NCBI RefSeq assembly: GCF_023703795.1
Contig: NZ_CP098518.1
Coordinates: 62,001 to 126,000 of the forward strand
DNA length: 64,000 bases
Reading direction: 5' to 3'
Source: Haloplanus sp. HW8-1
GTDB lineage: Archaea > Halobacteriota > Halobacteria > Halobacteriales > Haloferacaceae
A model generated the notes under the pieces. That model was not told the DNA's origin. It ran no database searches and saw only the letters and a list, made by a program, of their open reading frames with translations. The position numbers and the translations under genes are program-made. Each line of letters opens with the position of its first letter. Position 1 is the stretch's first letter. Of the stretch, positions 13,954-59,766 are shown in pieces.

Positions 13954-15285
13954 ATGACGACGCCACGGGAGAACCTTCGTGAAGCCAAAGGAACGCTTCG
14001 CCGCGCCGCGGAGAGAGGCGACGTGTCGGAAGCCGACGCCGACCGTATTGGGGAACTGTGCGCCGCCTTCGACCCCGACGACATGACGACGCCGCTCCCA
14101 AGTGACGGGGAGTATGCCGAGGACACCAAGCCCAAGCAACCGAACACGCTCCGCGGCTGGATGCAGTACCTCAAGCGAACCGCCGAGCGACTTCAACGGG
14201 GCGAGTTCGATACCACCCTCTCCGACGCCGGCGCCGACACGATCAACCAGTTGATGACCGATATGCGGAGGGGGAACCACCCGGATGTGAAAGATAGCGG
14301 ACTCTCGAATAACTCGATTCGGAACTATCAGGCGGCCGCCCGGCGGTTCTATCGCTATCACTCCGACCTCGGGGTCGACGCGCAGGATATTGTGCTCATC
14401 ACGGGCGACGACACGCACGTCGACGACCGGGATATGCTCACGAAAGACGAGATTGAGGCCATTCGTGACGCCGCCGAACACCCCCGCGACTTGGCGATTT
14501 TCGACCTCCTCCTCTACACGGGGCAACGGAACACGGCCATCCGGTCGCTTCGGATCAAAGACATCGACTTGGACGAAGGTGTGTACTATCTGAACACCGA
14601 CGCGGAAGGACTCAAAGGCGCCGACGAAAACGGGACGAAGCGCCCGCTCCTCGGTGCCGTGGGATCGATCCGCGAATGGCTCCGGTATCACCCTGCGCCC
14701 GACAACCCGGACGCCTACCTCATCACGCAAAAGCCGCGTTACCGGAACACGGACGGGACGGAGATGGTGTCGCGGAACACGCTCAACTACGCCATGCAAC
14801 AATTGAAGGAGAAAGCCGAGGTGGACAAGCCGCTTAACCCTCATAGCGTCCGACACAACTTCGTCACGATAGCCAAGCGGGAATACAAGATGGACGACGC
14901 GACGGTCAAGCACCTTATCGGTCACTCTCCGGATTCGGACGTGATGGAATCGACGTATTCACACCTCTCCGACGAGGACCACATCCGCGCCGCCGAGGAG
15001 GCGGCCGGGATTCGTGACCCCGAGGAGCAGAGTAGCCTGTCGCCCGACATTTGTCACTGTGGCGAACCACTCCCGGACGCCGCGGCCGCGTGTCCGCGCT
15101 GTGGAACGGTCTACCGGCCGGACGCCCAAGCAGCTCAAGAGCAGATTCAGGACGACGTGAAACAAGACTACCGCGACACCGACCCCGAGGACACGGACAC
15201 CCAAGACAAGATCGACACGCTTGACGAACTACTTGACGACCCCGAGGTGAAGGCCGCCCTGTTAAAGAAACTCAACGAGGAGTAG
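13954..15285 (+). CDS. int: Tyrosine recombinase (integrase) with C-terminal zinc ribbon
   Basis: A 443-residue phage-type integrase. The N-terminal SAM-like, core-binding helices (~75-165) are followed by the catalytic domain. The expected residues are all present: R192 (TGQRNTAIRSL), H297 and R300 (HSVRHNF), H324 (HLIGHS) and Y335 (STYSHL). After the catalytic domain comes a zinc-ribbon pattern (CHCGEPLP, then CPRCG) and an acidic helical tail to ~443. It should catalyse integration at the 11-base repeat. A TATA-like ctataag lies at ~13922-13928, upstream of the ATG. The position next to the left attachment site is classic for such elements. Confidence 0.93.
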   Translation: MTTPRENLREAKGTLRRAAERGDVSEADADRIGELCAAFDPDDMTTPLPSDGEYAEDTKPKQPNTLRGWMQYLKRTAERLQRGEFDTTLSDAGADTINQLMTDMRRGNHPDVKDSGLSNNSIRNYQAAARRFYRYHSDLGVDAQDIVLITGDDTHVDDRDMLTKDEIEAIRDAAEHPRDLAIFDLLLYTGQRNTAIRSLRIKDIDLDEGVYYLNTDAEGLKGADENGTKRPLLGAVGSIREWLRYHPAPDNPDAYLITQKPRYRNTDGTEMVSRNTLNYAMQQLKEKAEVDKPLNPHSVRHNFVTIAKREYKMDDATVKHLIGHSPDSDVMESTYSHLSDEDHIRAAEEAAGIRDPEEQSSLSPDICHCGEPLPDAAAACPRCGTVYRPDAQAAQEQIQDDVKQDYRDTDPEDTDTQDKIDTLDELLDDPEVKAALLKKLNEE

Positions 15286-15816
15286 CTACTCGTCGGCGAT
15301 ATCAAACTCTTCGCGGATATTATCATCTGGACCATACATTCCTGCGTTGCTGTCAGATATGATCTGGTCACGGATACGGTTGATCCGATCCCGATATTTA
15401 TCTGGTTTTGCTCCCTGTAGATCAAACATCTCGGTTATGGTGAGCGATTTTATCCCCTCACGTTCGATCTTCTCCTCTAAGGATGCTATGTATCCCTTTT
15501 TTCCTCTTCGCACACCTGTCTGTATTGCACCTTCTACGGCAAAGCCAGGTTTCGCGTCTCCAAGAAGATACAGCACGGTCACCAAGCTACTAATCCCCTC
15601 GGTCAATTCGGAGGGGGTGAAATCTTTCACTACTGTATTCTCATTAAGCTCGCCCTCCTCGAAAGCGTCTGCAATAAGTTCGGCGTCGGAAGTTATAGCC
15701 GCCCGGACTCGCTTATAAATTCTCTTCCGCATCTGCCGCTCATGCGCGACATCTTCGCCTTCCAACCACGCCCGTTGTGAATCCGTGAGGATCGAAGCAC
15801 TATCGTCGTTTGCCAT
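15286..15816 (-). CDS. Haloarchaeal mobile-element protein, unknown function
   Basis: 176 residues, starting at the MANDDS ATG (15816), transcribed toward the integrase and ending next to its stop. The N-terminal pattern ILTDSQRAWLEGE followed by an Arg/Lys-rich helix (RQMRKRIYKRVRAAI) is one I associate with a recurring family of uncharacterised haloarchaeal proteins on mobile elements. There is no catalytic motif. The gene is clearly more AT-rich than its neighbours (many ata, tct and tta codons), which suggests a different origin. It is divergent from the AbrB gene across a 53-base gap, so the two may share regulation. Confidence 0.65.
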   Translation of the reverse strand: MANDDSASILTDSQRAWLEGEDVAHERQMRKRIYKRVRAAITSDAELIADAFEEGELNENTVVKDFTPSELTEGISSLVTVLYLLGDAKPGFAVEGAIQTGVRRGKKGYIASLEEKIEREGIKSLTITEMFDLQGAKPDKYRDRINRIRDQIISDSNAGMYGPDDNIREEFDIADE

Positions 15817-15869
15817 ACACGATATTCTGTATACGCATAATAATAAATGTACGGTACATACGTATTCGT
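15817..15869. promoter_or_regulatory. Divergent promoter with palindromic operator candidate
   Basis: The 53-base AT-rich gap between two divergent genes contains a TATA-like cataataataaatg and the perfect odd palindrome ATGTACGGTACAT at 15847-15859, followed by the overlapping dyad tacg-tatt-cgta at 15859-15870 on the AbrB start codon. This is a likely operator for autoregulation by the AbrB-like protein. Confidence 0.45.
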
Positions 15870-16010
15870 ATGCCAGAGGCGCCAACCCGAGTCATCGAAG
15901 ACGGTCGGATTACGATACCGGCTCATGTACGACGAGACCTCGGATTAGAGAAGGGCGACTACGTCATGGTCGACGTTCGTCCTCTTGAGGAGGCGAATGT
16001 CGATGATTGA
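15870..16010 (+). CDS. AbrB/MazE/SpoVT-type DNA-binding protein
   Basis: 46 residues starting MPEAPTRVIEDGRITIPAHVR and continuing RDLGLEKGDYVMVDV, the swapped-hairpin AbrB fold in nearly minimal form. Such proteins serve as antitoxins or as repressors of mobile elements. The next ORF starts inside its last codons (ATG at 16003), so the two are translationally coupled. The in-frame ATG at 15810 is rejected because it would run through the divergent promoter. It probably controls its own operon and the opposite gene. Confidence 0.75.
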   Translation: MPEAPTRVIEDGRITIPAHVRRDLGLEKGDYVMVDVRPLEEANVDD

Positions 16011-21489: not shown

Positions 21490-21529
21490 TTAACCAACAA
21501 TCTGCCTACGACTATCGGGTGTTGGTTAA
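21490..21529. terminator. Inverted repeat after the element operon
   Basis: A perfect 10-base dyad: ttaaccaaca (21490-21499) and tgttggttaa (21520-21529), separated by 20 bases and located 54 bases after the stop of the 333-aa gene. It could be a transcription end structure or a protein-binding site. No T-run follows it, so the terminator reading is tentative. Confidence 0.35.
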
Positions 21530-21644
21530 GACATATTTTGACCACCGCTCCGTTTCCATCGGCGTGGCTATCGGCCTCAACGAGGGATACCTTTCGGGCA
21601 GGAAGTGGAAACAGATGGCCTACGTTCTAATCAGGATACGGTGG

Positions 21645-22307
21645 TCACAACTCTGCCATCGACGCGTCAATAGATTCGTCTTTTTCAAATTCAATATGTA
21701 AGCTTGAGTCGTAATTGGCTGTGTAGTATTGATTCTTTTCTGCGATTAACGACGCTTCTGACACAGTGTCAGGGACACCCGTAAGAAGCCATCCGTTGTC
21801 ACTCTCTCCCGGCTCAAGTAATGCACTTCCGAGTTGGTGTTTACCGAGAGGCATGTCGAACGTGTAGATCTGACCGGCCGCTTGAAGACCAAAAATGGCA
21901 CTTACCAAATCGACATTTTCCTCACCGATGTTTTCAACGGACGCTCTCACAAGCACTAATTTCTCACTATCAGACGATTGAAACCCACCATTCATAAAAT
22001 CAGGATTGACCGAGTTTTGGGTATTTGAATTGAAGTCGACTGTAAGTCGATAGATAGCATTACTATCGATTAAATCAACTGGGGAGACAGTCACCGAGTC
22101 GATATTGGGTGCTTCAGTTGTTCTAATGGGTGTGTCTGTTTCGGTTACAGTGTTGGTCGGCATATCTTGGGAAGTAGCGGACGGGGCGTCAGTTAGTGTC
22201 TTGGTTTCGGTGTCGGTGGCCGTCGGTTCCGGCGTTTCACTCTCCCCCCCACTACTACAACCAGCTCCTAACGCGCTAATCACCCCAAGGAATGCGCGCC
22301 GATCCAT
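21645..22307 (-). CDS. Secreted lipoprotein carried by the element
   Basis: 220 residues with an RR-containing signal and lipobox (MDRRAFLGVISALGAGCSS; the Cys is the anchor), then a Thr/Glu/Pro-rich linker and a beta-rich domain similar in character to DUF4352-type lipoproteins (LVLVRASVENIGEENVDL). It points opposite to the main operon and is much more AT-rich than the rest of the window, with codons such as ata, aat and tta. It is probably an independently acquired cargo gene that modifies the host surface. The ATG at 22307 directly starts the signal. Confidence 0.75.
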   Translation of the reverse strand: MDRRAFLGVISALGAGCSSGGESETPEPTATDTETKTLTDAPSATSQDMPTNTVTETDTPIRTTEAPNIDSVTVSPVDLIDSNAIYRLTVDFNSNTQNSVNPDFMNGGFQSSDSEKLVLVRASVENIGEENVDLVSAIFGLQAAGQIYTFDMPLGKHQLGSALLEPGESDNGWLLTGVPDTVSEASLIAEKNQYYTANYDSSLHIEFEKDESIDASMAEL

Positions 22308-22352
22308 GTGGGGTACTGATCTGTCGTTTGATAAAAACGTGTCCCTGGCAAT

Positions 22353-24368
<2,016 letters not shown>

Positions 24369-52682: not shown

Positions 52683-52700
52683 GTGAATGACCCGGTAGAC

Positions 52701-53804
52701 ATGGACGAACGACGCGCGATCGTCGCCCTCTTCGGATTCCTCGTCATCGCCACCATCGGTTTCATCGCCTACCAGTTCGTCGCCGCTCTCACCATCGCCG
52801 TGTTCGTTTACTATTCGACACGACGATTCTACAGGGCACTCGGTCGCCTCCATCTCCCGAAGCGGGTTCGGGCAGTGGCGGTGATCCTCCTGCTTGCCCT
52901 CCCCTTACTCCTGTTGCTCAGTTACACCCTGGTCTTGCTCGTCACCGAGACGCGTCGGTTCGTCGATACGTATCCGGTCATCGAGACGGCCGCCGCCAAC
53001 GTGGCGTGGCTGGAGGGTATGGAGGACCTTCCTAGCCTCACGTTCGCGGGCGTCGTCGAGGCGTATCGGGCGGGGCAGTTCGACGCGATCATCGACTTCC
53101 TGGTGGAGAACGCTGCCTTCCTGACCAGCGCGATCACGGGCTTTTTCCTCAACCTGTTCATCGTGGTGGTCGTCAGCTACTATCTCCTGATCGACGGCTC
53201 GCGGCTCCACGGCTGGCTCCGACGGTTCGACGACGACGCCATCGTCCGCGAGTTCCTGGAGGCCGCGGACCGTGAACTCGAAGCTATCCTCTTTGGCAAC
53301 CTCCTGAACGTAATCGCCATCGCTCTGATCGGCGTCGGCGCGTTCAAAGGGTACAACGCGCTCGTCCCGGCGGCCGTCGAGGTTCCGTATCCAGCGCTGG
53401 CAGGCGTCCTCACGGGCGTCGCGAGCCTCGTCCCGGTCGTCGGGATGAAGATCGTCTACGTACCCATCGCCGCGGCGATGTCGGCGCCGATCGCCTTCCG
53501 CGGTGAGTACTCTCTGTTGGTGTATGTCGCCGCGTTCATAGCCGTAGCGGTCGTCGTCGTCGACACCATTCCCGACCTCGTCCTTCGGCCGTATCTCAGC
53601 GGCGAGCGAACCCACGTCGGCTTGCTGATGCTCGCGTACATCTTCGGCCCGGTCGTGTTCGGCTTCTACGGGCTCTTTTTTGCACCCATCATCCTCGCCC
53701 TCGGAGTGACCTTCGCCCACACGGCGCTCCCACGGCTCCTCGGCGGCGACGAGGCGGTCGACTCCGGACTCCCGCCGGACCAGCGCCGTCTCGACGACTT
53801 CTGA
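52701..53804 (+). CDS. AI-2E family transporter
   Basis: About 367 residues with seven to eight hydrophobic helices in the AI-2E/PerM/UPF0118 pattern: an N-terminal pair, a soluble loop (~90-135), and a C-terminal block with GFFLNLFIVVVVSYYLLIDG, FGNLLNVIAIALIGVGAF, VVGMKIVYVPIAAAMS and PDLVLRPYLSGERTHVGLLM. Members export small solutes or act as ion antiporters; the substrate is unknown. ATG 52701 (MDERRAIVALFGF) is preferred to GTG 52683. Confidence 0.85.
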   Translation: MDERRAIVALFGFLVIATIGFIAYQFVAALTIAVFVYYSTRRFYRALGRLHLPKRVRAVAVILLLALPLLLLLSYTLVLLVTETRRFVDTYPVIETAAANVAWLEGMEDLPSLTFAGVVEAYRAGQFDAIIDFLVENAAFLTSAITGFFLNLFIVVVVSYYLLIDGSRLHGWLRRFDDDAIVREFLEAADRELEAILFGNLLNVIAIALIGVGAFKGYNALVPAAVEVPYPALAGVLTGVASLVPVVGMKIVYVPIAAAMSAPIAFRGEYSLLVYVAAFIAVAVVVVDTIPDLVLRPYLSGERTHVGLLMLAYIFGPVVFGFYGLFFAPIILALGVTFAHTALPRLLGGDEAVDSGLPPDQRRLDDF

Positions 53805-55103
53805 CCGGGTCGATCGGCGCGGACCGACGCCGGTGACTCTGCCCGCCCGTCCGCTCGCCGTCGAGGAGCGGGCCGTCTATCGGCCGGGCACCGTAGGTTC
53901 ACACTCCACGGGAGGTACCGCACCGCCGTGAGCTCCGACCGTCGCCGTTTCGCTTCGACCGACGAATACATACCAACTTACAATGTATTCTGTAATATAT
54001 ATATAATTCTGACGACGATCACGAACGCCGACACGAGAGAAGAGACCGGGAAAATATGATACAGTAGACAAATATGTTACAATATCCGGGAATAAAAAGA
54101 GAAAACTAGAAATAATGTCTTAATAAAGAAAATATATAAGTTTTGCACGCCTCGTTCTCGTACTGGCGGACATCGGTTCGGAGACTACGCTGTTCGGGAC
54201 GAAAGACTACGAATACAGTGCTTTGGAGCCTGAAACGCTCGGTTTGTCCTCGTTCGTATCCTCTTCGGGGAGATCGACGACGAAGTAGCGACTACATCCC
54301 GCTTTCAGAATAATACAATAGAAAAATCACTACTGACAATACATACAAATACTGGTATATTTATCAGGAGGGGCAACGAGGGCGTCGTCGGCCAGTTGCC
54401 AGTATCTGCCCGGAACTACCGTGTCGCGACGCCGCTGCCATCAAATAACGAGTATAGTTTTGTTAGGATCTTTCTTCCCTGCGGGAACGATCCGGACGTG
54501 TCCGTCGTTCCCTTCGATTCCAAGAGATGCTACCGTGTCACCTAGAAGAGTTCGGCGATACTGAACGATAGGTGTGAACAGTTACGATCGTCGTCCCGAT
54601 CTACAGTGCGCTACTGGCGAAAATTCACGATTATGGGGTAAGACCCCGACTCTCCCATTTGTGAACACTTCGATGCGTGAGTATAACGAACGAACACGAC
54701 CGTGTGTGATAAATAATTAAAGTCACATTGGTGTTTTTGGCGCAAGCATGCCTCGATGTCGGGCCCTATACGCGATCATACTCTATGTTCTTTATATTCA
54801 GAATGGGTGAACAATGTTCCCACTCTAGTGAACGCGTTCCGTACAGCGATCTGATCGGAGATGGACATCCAATACCGTTTCTGGACTGTCTACGTACGAT
54901 ATATCGGTATCAACGCTGGTTTTCGGCGGCACGATCGTAGTCGGTCAGCCGAGCCGCCTACCCCCGTCCGTTCAGTATCGGTGTACGTGTTCGTAGTGGG
55001 TGGTGCTGTGAGAACGATCGCCCTCGAAGCGTTCCGGAGTCGGAACGAACGGGGCGTCTGTCCGCCCGATGATCGAGGAGAGAGACGGAGCAGGTCGGTG
55101 GTG
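53805..55103. other. 1.3-kb AT-rich region without recognisable genes
   Basis: Lies between two converging transcription units. From ~53960 to ~54930 it is strikingly AT-rich, with runs such as tatatatata (~53997) and many stops in all frames. A strong hairpin is at 54483-54512 (gggaacga with tcgttccc; cggac with gtccg). A TATA-like aaatatataag is at ~54128. ORFs of 70-150 residues at 54728-54940 and 54861-55316 have no convincing protein features. It may hold a non-coding RNA or be a decayed insertion. Confidence 0.5.
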
Positions 55104-56285
55104 TTACTCGACGTCGACCGTGCCACCGGTGTCGGGATCGCCGCGGGCGAACCGCTTTCCGGTGGTGGTGTTGAACAGGTACAGCGTCGGTACTTTGGGG
55201 AGGATCGTCGCGTGTTCGTCCTCCGGAATCACCTCTTCGACGGGGACGACGGCGCGCATCTCCCCCTGTGGCCCTTCGAGGTACATGTGTACCTCGTCAC
55301 CGAGTGGCTCGTGTAGGTCCACGGTCGTCTGGATGCCGGGGGTGTCCGGATCGGGGGTTGCCTGAATCTTTCGCGGCCGGAAGCCGAGCTTGATGTCTTC
55401 GCTCGCCTCGTCGGGAAGGTACTCCCCGATGTTGAACGAGAACCGCGGACCGTCGTCGACGTCGACGACGGCCCGTTCGTCGTCGATATCGACGACCGTG
55501 GCGTCGAGCAGGTTGATCTCGGGCGATCCGATGAACTCGGCGACGAACGTGTTGTTGGGGATCCGGTAGACCTCCTCCGGGTGTCCGACCTGTTCGATCT
55601 GTCCGTCGTTCATCACCGCGATCTTGTCCGACATCGTCATCGCCTCCTCCTGGTCGTGGGTGACGTAGACGATGGTGGCGTCGAGTTCCTTGTGGATTCG
55701 GCTGAGCTCCTTGCGCATCTCGCGTTTGAGCTTCGCGTCCAGGTCGCTCATCGGCTCGTCCATCAGGAACGCGACCGGCTCGCGGACGATCGCCCGGCTG
55801 ATGGCGATCCGCTGTTGTTGCCCGCCGGACAGCTCCCCGGGATACTTGTCGAGCAGCCCGTCGATCTGGACGATCTCGGCGGCCGTTTCGACCCGTTCGG
55901 TTCGCTGCTCCCGGGACATGCCGGCCAGCTTGAGCGGGTACTCGATGTTCTCCCGCGCCGTCATGTGGGGGTACAGTGCGATCCGCTGGAACACCATCGC
56001 GAGGTCGCGGTCCTGCGGGGAGGTGTCGATCGCTTCCTCGCCTTCCAGGTAGAGTGTCCCCTCCGTCGCCGTCTCGAGGCCGGCGATACAACGGAGAGTC
56101 GTGGTCTTCCCACATCCACTCGGGCCGACGAGGGTGACGAAGTCACCCTTCTGGATGTCGAGGTCGACGCCGTCGACCGCCACCTCGATGCCCGACGGGA
56201 TGTCGAACTCCTTGCGAAGGTTCTGAAGCGATATCTGTGTCTGGTCGTCCGGCAACGAACTTCGGTTCCGATCTGTTTTGCTCAT
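55104..56285 (-). CDS. ABC sugar-type importer, ATP-binding protein
   Basis: 393 residues of the MalK/UgpC class: Walker A LVGPSGCGKTTTLR, Q-loop VFQRIALYPHM, signature ELSGGQQQRIAISRA, Walker B FLMDEPMSDLD and H-loop YVTHDQEEAM. A C-terminal TOBE/OB regulatory domain (~245-390) follows. It energises import by the two permeases encoded upstream and is the last gene of the four-gene operon, with two bases to the preceding permease gene. Confidence 0.92.
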   Translation of the reverse strand: MSKTDRNRSSLPDDQTQISLQNLRKEFDIPSGIEVAVDGVDLDIQKGDFVTLVGPSGCGKTTTLRCIAGLETATEGTLYLEGEEAIDTSPQDRDLAMVFQRIALYPHMTARENIEYPLKLAGMSREQRTERVETAAEIVQIDGLLDKYPGELSGGQQQRIAISRAIVREPVAFLMDEPMSDLDAKLKREMRKELSRIHKELDATIVYVTHDQEEAMTMSDKIAVMNDGQIEQVGHPEEVYRIPNNTFVAEFIGSPEINLLDATVVDIDDERAVVDVDDGPRFSFNIGEYLPDEASEDIKLGFRPRKIQATPDPDTPGIQTTVDLHEPLGDEVHMYLEGPQGEMRAVVPVEEVIPEDEHATILPKVPTLYLFNTTTGKRFARGDPDTGGTVDVE

Positions 56286-56287
56286 TG

Positions 56288-57184
56288 TTAGAGTCCTCCG
56301 GTGCGGAATCCTTCGAGGATGCTTTCCTGCAACTTGTACACCAACAGGAACGGCGGGATCGACATCAGCGTCGACGCCGCCATGATCTGCCCCCAGTAGA
56401 CGTAGTTCTGCTGGACGAACGTCTGGACTGCGGGTGGCAGTGTCTGCATGGAACTATCCGGGAGCAGGATCGTCGCCATCGTGAAGTCGTTCCAGCTAAC
56501 TGCGAACGTGAAGATGGCCACGGCGACCATTCCGGGTTTCGCCATCGGGATCGCCACGTCCTTGAACGAGTGGAACTGTGAGGCCCCGTTCATCCACGCG
56601 GCCTCCTCGTACGCGATGGGGACCGTCTGGAAGAACTTCCACATCATCCACATCGCGAACGGCAACGAAATGGCGATGTGAGCGACGCTGATCCCGATGT
56701 AGCTGTTCAGCAGGCCCAGCCGCCGCCAGATCTGGTACTGCGGGAACGCCAGCAGGATCGGCGGGAACATGTAGCTGAACAGGATCAGCCGGGCGAAGTT
56801 CTTTCGGCCGCGGAACTGGACCCGGGTCAGGCCGTAGCCCGCCAGCGTGGACGCGCCCACGGTCGAGACGATCGCGATCACGGCCACGAGGACGCTGTTG
56901 AAGTACCAGCGTTCGAAGTTACGGTCGGCGAACACGCTGATGTACGCGTCGATCTGCAGGGCGGCGAGCACCTGCGTCGGGAACCACGTCGGGGTCCGCA
57001 CGATGTGGTCGTACGGCTGGACCGACGCCACCAGCATCCAGTACATCGGGAACATCATCACGGCACACGTCAGGACGACGACGGCGTACAGCGCCACCTT
57101 CCTCACCTGCAGGCGCTCCTGGTAGGGGAGGATTCCCGAGAGGGTCGACTGGATCCGGTTCGAGATCCTATCGGTGAATACCAT
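56288..57184 (-). CDS. ABC sugar-type importer permease (MalG-like)
   Basis: 298 residues, six membrane helices. The cytoplasmic coupling motif is EEAAWMNGASQFHSF then KDVAIPMAKPG, which docks to the ATPase. The C-terminus PPFLLVYKLQESILEGFRTGGL, ending in G-KG-like residues, is typical of the MalG subgroup of carbohydrate importers. Its ATG shares one base with the stop of the other permease gene. Confidence 0.9.
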   Translation of the reverse strand: MVFTDRISNRIQSTLSGILPYQERLQVRKVALYAVVVLTCAVMMFPMYWMLVASVQPYDHIVRTPTWFPTQVLAALQIDAYISVFADRNFERWYFNSVLVAVIAIVSTVGASTLAGYGLTRVQFRGRKNFARLILFSYMFPPILLAFPQYQIWRRLGLLNSYIGISVAHIAISLPFAMWMMWKFFQTVPIAYEEAAWMNGASQFHSFKDVAIPMAKPGMVAVAIFTFAVSWNDFTMATILLPDSSMQTLPPAVQTFVQQNYVYWGQIMAASTLMSIPPFLLVYKLQESILEGFRTGGL

Positions 57185-58140
57185 CAGCGACCCACCTCCT
57201 CAGCGGGGTTGAAGCCGACGAAGTAGACGATGGCGCCAGCCCCGAGGAACGCGAACAGCGTCCCGGCGATCGCACCGGCCTGGCCGAGTTTGAAGTCGAG
57301 GAACGCCACCTCGAAGATGTAGATCGGGAGCGTCGTCGTCGCCGATCCCGGGCCACCGGTGGTCATGATGTAGATGATGTCGAACTTGTTGAACATCCAG
57401 ATGCCCCGCAGCAGCAGCGTGAGCAGAATGACGCCCTTGATCTGGGGAAGTGTGATGTCCCGGAACTTCCGGAGCGGCCCCGCCCCGTTCATCGTGGCCG
57501 CCTCGTAGAACTCGTTGGGGATCGACTGTAGCCGGGCCAGCACCATGATCGTGATGAAGATGGCGAACTTCCAGGAGTTCGCGACGATCAGGGTCGGCAG
57601 GGCGATGTCACCCGACGACAGCCATCCGATGGGCTGGTTGATGAGCCCGATGTCGACGAGGAAGACGTTGATGATCCCGTAGTTCCCGTTGAGCATCAGC
57701 CGGAACACCATCCCGACCACCACGGTCGGAATGAGATACGGGAGGAAGATCATCGCTCGCGCGAGGACGACGCCCCGGAACTCCCGCGAGAGCATCAGCG
57801 CCGTGCCGACGCCGATGACGAGCTGGAGCGCGACCGAGCCGAAGCCGAACGAGACGCTGCGCCAGAACGCGTTCCAGTAAGACGGGCTGTTCAGCACGCC
57901 GATGTAGTTCTCGATACCCACCCACGTCCACGTCGGCGACAGGGCGCCTGCGTCGTAGAGGCTGAGATTGAGCGCCCACAGGATCGGCAGGAACGACGCG
58001 AACAACATCAACAGCGCGGCTGGCCCGACGGTCAACCCGATGAGGGCCTTCTTGTCCCCAAACAGGCTTTCGAGCAGTCCATCCCAGGATTTTTTCGGTA
58101 TTCTGAACCAGTTATTAACTGTGTCTTGTAATGTACTCAT
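57184..58140 (-). CDS. ABC sugar-type importer permease (MalF/UgpA-like)
   Basis: 318 residues, about six membrane helices; the coupling loop is YEAATMNGAGPLRKFRDI then TLPQIKG. ATTTLPIYIFEVAF near the C-terminus is the family pattern of carbohydrate permeases. It pairs with the next gene product to form the channel. The substrate is not determinable; a sugar, oligosaccharide or polyol is likely from the family. Confidence 0.9.
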   Translation of the reverse strand: MSTLQDTVNNWFRIPKKSWDGLLESLFGDKKALIGLTVGPAALLMLFASFLPILWALNLSLYDAGALSPTWTWVGIENYIGVLNSPSYWNAFWRSVSFGFGSVALQLVIGVGTALMLSREFRGVVLARAMIFLPYLIPTVVVGMVFRLMLNGNYGIINVFLVDIGLINQPIGWLSSGDIALPTLIVANSWKFAIFITIMVLARLQSIPNEFYEAATMNGAGPLRKFRDITLPQIKGVILLTLLLRGIWMFNKFDIIYIMTTGGPGSATTTLPIYIFEVAFLDFKLGQAGAIAGTLFAFLGAGAIVYFVGFNPAEEVGR

Positions 58141-58248
58141 GCTTTGTGTGTGTGGTTATCGGACACGTGGGGTTGGTTGTCGATATTCACAATAAAAATT
58201 TGTGGTAACGCTTCGGTCAGCGCGCGGGAGGACTGCGTGAGGCCAGTC

Positions 58249-59766
<1,518 letters not shown>

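Follow-up and report, generated by a model that had tools for sequence, protein, structure and literature searches.

In Haloquadratum walsbyi, identical positions frequently carry unrelated DNA, a situation named deletion-coupled insertion in the available part of PMC3119063. In the accessible text of PMC3528665, haloarchaeal replication origins, for which the vicinity of orc/cdc6 genes was searched, have inverted ORBs with G-strings. The excerpts available from PMC6560208 and PMC3956466 describe small RNAs from intergenic DNA as common in Haloferax volcanii. The gene desert of Haloplanus sp. HW8-1 described here lies within a stretch of 64,000 nucleotides that was analysed as a whole (the window). 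Like the variable regions of H. walsbyi in PMC3119063, as far as the available part describes them, it lies between flanks that are conserved in two related haloarchaea and may hold unrelated DNA in each of them, and no attachment repeat was found. It also resembles the borders of genomic islands, in that a large block which nine congeners lack at this place has its edge here. Unlike in genomic islands, neither an integrase nor a tRNA target nor a direct repeat was found here, and the GC content of the block is chromosome-like. With the orc/cdc6-linked origins of PMC3528665, to the extent that these are described in the accessible text, the desert shares AT-rich intergenic DNA and short repeats, but it has no orc/cdc6 gene nearby and long inverted repeats were not seen. 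The coordinates of all features are given in Table 1.

Table 1. Features of the desert and its surroundings (window positions unless a contig position is given).
Feature	Position	Strand	Remarks
Left neighbour, AI-2E family transporter (PF01594), permease	52683..53804	+	
Noncoding gap between the two stop codons	53805..55103	.	1,299 bp, GC 0.51
One more GTGAAC	53897	other strand	
AT-rich core	53960..54785	.	not clearly related to G074 gap
Nested hairpin, 8 + 4 base pairs	54483..54512	+	ordinary
Four GTGAAC hexamers	54574, 54661, 54807, 54828 (54574..54833)	+	
Part related to G074 gap	54786..55078	.	local alignment score 83; adjoins 3' end of ABC operon
Right neighbour, MalK-type ABC ATPase	55104..56285	-	first gene of block
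Rest of ABC importer operon	56288..59766	-	two permeases and solute-binding protein
Block of 71 kb	53805 to contig C1 186932		mainly metabolic genes

The initial annotation reported about 1 kb of low GC in a high-GC window, devoid of any plausible gene and situated between convergent units. All of this could be confirmed. The GC content of positions 53960-54950 is 0.462. When a sample of 538,001 bp from the genome was cut into 991-bp segments at steps of 100, only a fraction of 0.00019 of them was as low; the other gaps of that sample have a mean GC of 0.62 with our crude gene caller. In length the gap ranks second among 232 gaps of more than 60 bp, a rank which, as all gene lists and gap counts presented here, rests on a crude home-made gene-calling rule. 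The desert is more than a product of chance. It separates the stop codon of the AI-2E transporter gene on the plus strand from that of the MalK-type ABC ATPase gene on the minus strand. The period-3 signal reaches values of 0.3-1.8 in the gap, which is below the 95% point of shuffled sequences (2.13), in comparison to 7.5-20.3 in both neighbouring genes. Searches with the ten open pieces of the gap yielded best E values of 0.078 for Pfam and 0.47 for PHROGs, and for the longest of these pieces (54234-54542) no relative was found among 166 further family genomes. A decayed gene was rejected on account of the absent period-3 signal, the Pfam and PHROGs results and the search for relatives. When 46 six-frame pieces were compared with 1.05 Mb of DNA excluding the desert, three weak matches were obtained, the best one with an E value of 0.006 over 21 residues.

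Two other stretches of the window are also low in GC (21501-22500, GC 0.50; 15001-16000, GC 0.53). The longest gap of the sample, L106:14134-16444, comprises 2,311 bp with a GC content of 0.59 and five CTAG tetramers, and may contain RNA genes or genes missed by the caller.

An AI-2E gene is encoded by all 12 genomes of the genus, and homologues of the ATPase (E <= 1e-100) by eight of them. Apart from the window's genome, the ATPase gene is convergent with and adjoining the AI-2E gene only in one congener, G074, the nearest of the relatives examined, where the ATPase is 88% identical. In G111 and G096 a homologue of 53-54% identity is located 5-8 kb away on the opposite side. The distance between the AI-2E gene and a gene for an M50/CBS protease was compared in 11 of the 12 genomes (G116 was left out). 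In nine congeners it is between 18 and 3,005 bp, as against 71,135 bp here and 50,470 bp in G074. Since the two genes are near neighbours in nine congeners and far apart in the two carriers, the desert is, as judged from gene order, the seam on the left of a block that is clade-specific and consists mainly of metabolic genes. At this place the block is absent from nine out of nine congeners compared.

The block encodes, besides the ABC importer, a chaperonin, galactarate/altronate dehydratases, a RuBisCO-like protein, several dehydrogenases, IclR regulators and hydantoinases. It is collinear with G074 from 117.1 to 163.2 kb of contig C1 (about 46 kb); further on, the window's genome contains extra DNA. 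No integrase was detected among the 60 block proteins scanned (from 62 places in the crude gene list), the left and the right seam share no sequence longer than 13 nt, and neither a tRNA junction nor an attachment repeat was found for the block. A short frame in a low-GC part of it (L081:18888-19397; C1 164887-165396) matches the DDE transposase family DDE_Tnp_IS240 with an E value of 7.8e-7. The right seam of the block (L083:178-932; C1 186178-186932) is likewise gene-poor, with 755 bp, a GC content of 0.59 according to the crude caller and an imperfect palindrome of 29 nt.

The initial annotation proposed a comparison with relatives; of the 12 genus genomes, only G074 shares the convergent pair with the window's genome. 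The G074 gap between the same genes comprises 1,253 bp with a GC content of 0.58. No match between the two gaps was obtained by blastn, though homology resumes at both stop codons with 86-89% DNA identity. Local alignment revealed that about 300 bp on the right are related and that about 900 bp on the left are not clearly so. The right part (54786-55078) scores 83, a value reached by none of 500 shuffles and none of 2,422 unrelated real windows. For the left 895 bp the score was equalled in 40 of 880 real windows, which is borderline, and the piece 54005-54784 is indistinguishable from unrelated DNA (57 of 600 unrelated windows score as high). The first 150 bp of the gap have a good match within the G074 gap, though not in a collinear position (1/200 shuffles as good). 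Aligned from end to end, the two gaps are somewhat above shuffles, with z values of 3.4 and 3.3. Three other long gaps gave z values of 8.4 (640 bp), 4.1 (423 bp) and 1.9 (352 bp; C1 163246-163599, outer ends guessed), and this comparison is limited to a few long gaps because G074 has almost no gap at most of the remaining sites. Judging from these values, the desert has diverged more than some gaps, yet is not unique in this respect.

The possibility that the right part is a tail travelling with the ABC operon was also considered. Operons related to this one, with ATPases of 75% and 74% identity, adjoin gaps of 390 bp in G018 and 503 bp in G042. This candidate was rejected as the desert's right part does not match either gap (109/200 and 98/200 shuffles as good); the right part of G074 matches the G018 gap somewhat (1/200 shuffles as good).

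Among the explanations offered by the initial annotation, a decayed insertion comes closest to our results. The desert fits this idea as the edge of a block found only here and in G074 (11 genus genomes), and because its left part is not clearly shared, whereas no transposon remnant was found by similarity searches. A small mobile element in the gap, either a MITE or a decayed IS, would account for the low GC. It would also agree with the enrichment of CTAG, of which the gap has three (54106, 54542 and 54825), i.e. 2.3 per kb, where the sample has 0.29 and the other gaps have 0.57 per kb, and with a perfect inverted repeat whose 12-nt arms are separated by 401 nt (54556-54567/54969-54980). Pairs of the latter kind can, however, arise by chance in 1.3 kb. 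In its own genome the desert matches only itself, no match was obtained in the plasmid and phage collections, and no viral, plasmid or repeat signature was found in it. The own genome was among the 148 family genomes searched, with only three candidates scored in each. Seventeen of them match at E <= 0.01, and all matches outside the own genome are fragments of 34 bp at most with a best E value of 4.4e-4. The same search with a 291-bp query from another gap of the genome resulted in 11 matches in the own genome, the query itself included. Because such repeats are detected by the search and the desert yields itself only, the desert is not a dispersed repeat; no further copies were found in the genome or in other records. 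An insertion element was rejected in the absence of a second copy or an outside match, and a mobile element of any kind is an unlikely explanation, though the gap may harbour a lone, fully decayed one. The 291-bp query (L080:817-1107; C1 126816-127106) lies just beyond the right end of the window and contains a MITE-like repeat of about 275 bp, for which no gene is annotated. Its 11 own-genome matches have 79-100% identity, it also gives matches in 14 haloarchaeal plasmid records, and G074 has only 18 bp at its site. The hairpin, which was described as strong and nested, does exist, but its strength is not exceptional. Its stability of -16.2 kcal/mol on either strand is reached at 151 distinct places of the 64-kb window, and 19 of 120 shuffled deserts contain a hairpin at least as good. 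It is not clearly beyond chance, and it was rejected as a significant element on the basis of these stability controls. A small structured or regulatory RNA gene with the hairpin as one part would find some encouragement in the 73-nt hairpin context, where a mild excess is seen (z -2.15; 4/200 shuffles fold as well), and in the abundance of intergenic small RNAs in H. volcanii as described in the available excerpts. Folding of the whole 991-nt region is close to that of shuffles, with z values of -1.0 for the plus strand (3/20 as good) and -1.8 for the minus strand (1/20). The Rfam covariance search returned at gathering score only the two tRNAs of the window and nothing in the gap, where matches below that score are at chance level. 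The hairpin region does not align to the G074 gap, whose best 30-nt hairpins are different ones. The structured-RNA reading of the initial annotation could not be upheld on these grounds, and an RNA gene in the gap is quite improbable.

Could the desert serve as a replication origin? It is an AT-rich gap with short repeats, and the minimum of the window's cumulative GC skew falls into it. This turn of the skew, however, coincides with the switch between the convergent genes. All six Cdc6_C matches of the genome are located elsewhere: those on the same contig are at 2.72 Mb (below cut-off) and 2.95 Mb, compared with 0.116 Mb for the desert. Long repeats were not found within the gap, in contrast to the inverted ORBs which the accessible text of PMC3528665 describes, and no orc/cdc6-origin signature was found at the desert. 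An orc/cdc6-linked origin was rejected as no such gene is nearby, and an origin of replication is altogether extremely improbable. For a chromosome-organising site, as also proposed by the initial annotation, a weak cluster of a putative motif is the only positive evidence. The G074 gap contains five GTGAAC hexamers, all on the same strand as the four clustered here, and GTGAAC is the top-ranked hexamer of both gaps taken together, as measured by a first-order Markov expectation with the motif picked after inspection. Four such sites on one strand within 500 bp occur nowhere else in the 538-kb sample. These findings would fit an oriented array of predicted sites for a protein (a regulator, an insulator or a nucleoid protein) between two convergent units. 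Against this stand the choice of the motif after inspection, the common ancestry of the two gaps and the irregular spacing of the sites. Triplets of sites within 300 bp occur at three other places of the sample, other gaps contain 0.84 sites per kb, and the gaps beside the related operons have none in G018 and one in G042. One pair of the hexamers lies inside the related right part; a pattern derived from this pair is found without mismatch only in the two gaps among the 12 genomes, with one match in G106 at two mismatches. Among the matches listed in literature searches, no title or abstract dealt with this locus or with the GTGAAC motif. An oriented array of this kind is highly doubtful, and the clustering may be due to chance or shared descent. 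A more specific idea is that the cluster, being confined to one strand in both species amid largely unalignable sequence, is a predicted protein-binding array marking or insulating the border of the convergent units at the edge of the acquired block; for this there is a slim chance.

The desert is probably junction DNA, either without function or under light constraint at most, where the clade-specific, mainly metabolic block has its left edge. This junction-DNA reading agrees with the gene spacing, the collinearity over about 46 kb, the lack of a coding signal, of a second copy and of matches in the plasmid and phage collections, and the fact that the right part is shared but the left part not clearly so. 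The unrelated DNA at identical positions in H. walsbyi (PMC3119063) provides a haloarchaeal precedent. Several observations speak against it. The left 895 bp are borderline and not clearly unrelated, the first 150 bp match in a non-collinear manner, and the integrase, attachment repeat or tRNA junction of an acquired block was not found. Moreover, pure junk is not expected to carry a GTGAAC cluster such as the two gaps share.

We suppose that insertion, or assembly through rearrangement, gave rise to the block in a common ancestor of the window's species and G074. Unrelated DNA would then have taken the place of the gap's left part once the two species had separated, or this part would have drifted beyond recognition because nothing there was selected. 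The low GC would in that case reflect foreign origin or relaxed selection. In H. walsbyi two strains with single-base edges were compared according to the available part of PMC3119063, whereas here two species are involved, the inner edges are fuzzy and the right part is related, so that drift and replacement are indistinguishable.

Taken as junction DNA, the desert looks mostly ordinary, a variable seam with leftover sequence rather than a functional RNA. This clarifies what had seemed a striking desert with a hairpin, and the desert places the border of a clade-specific block of 50-71 kb with mainly metabolic genes. Were the shared GTGAAC cluster functional, it would exemplify an archaeal intergenic region in which a motif is conserved although the sequence is not.
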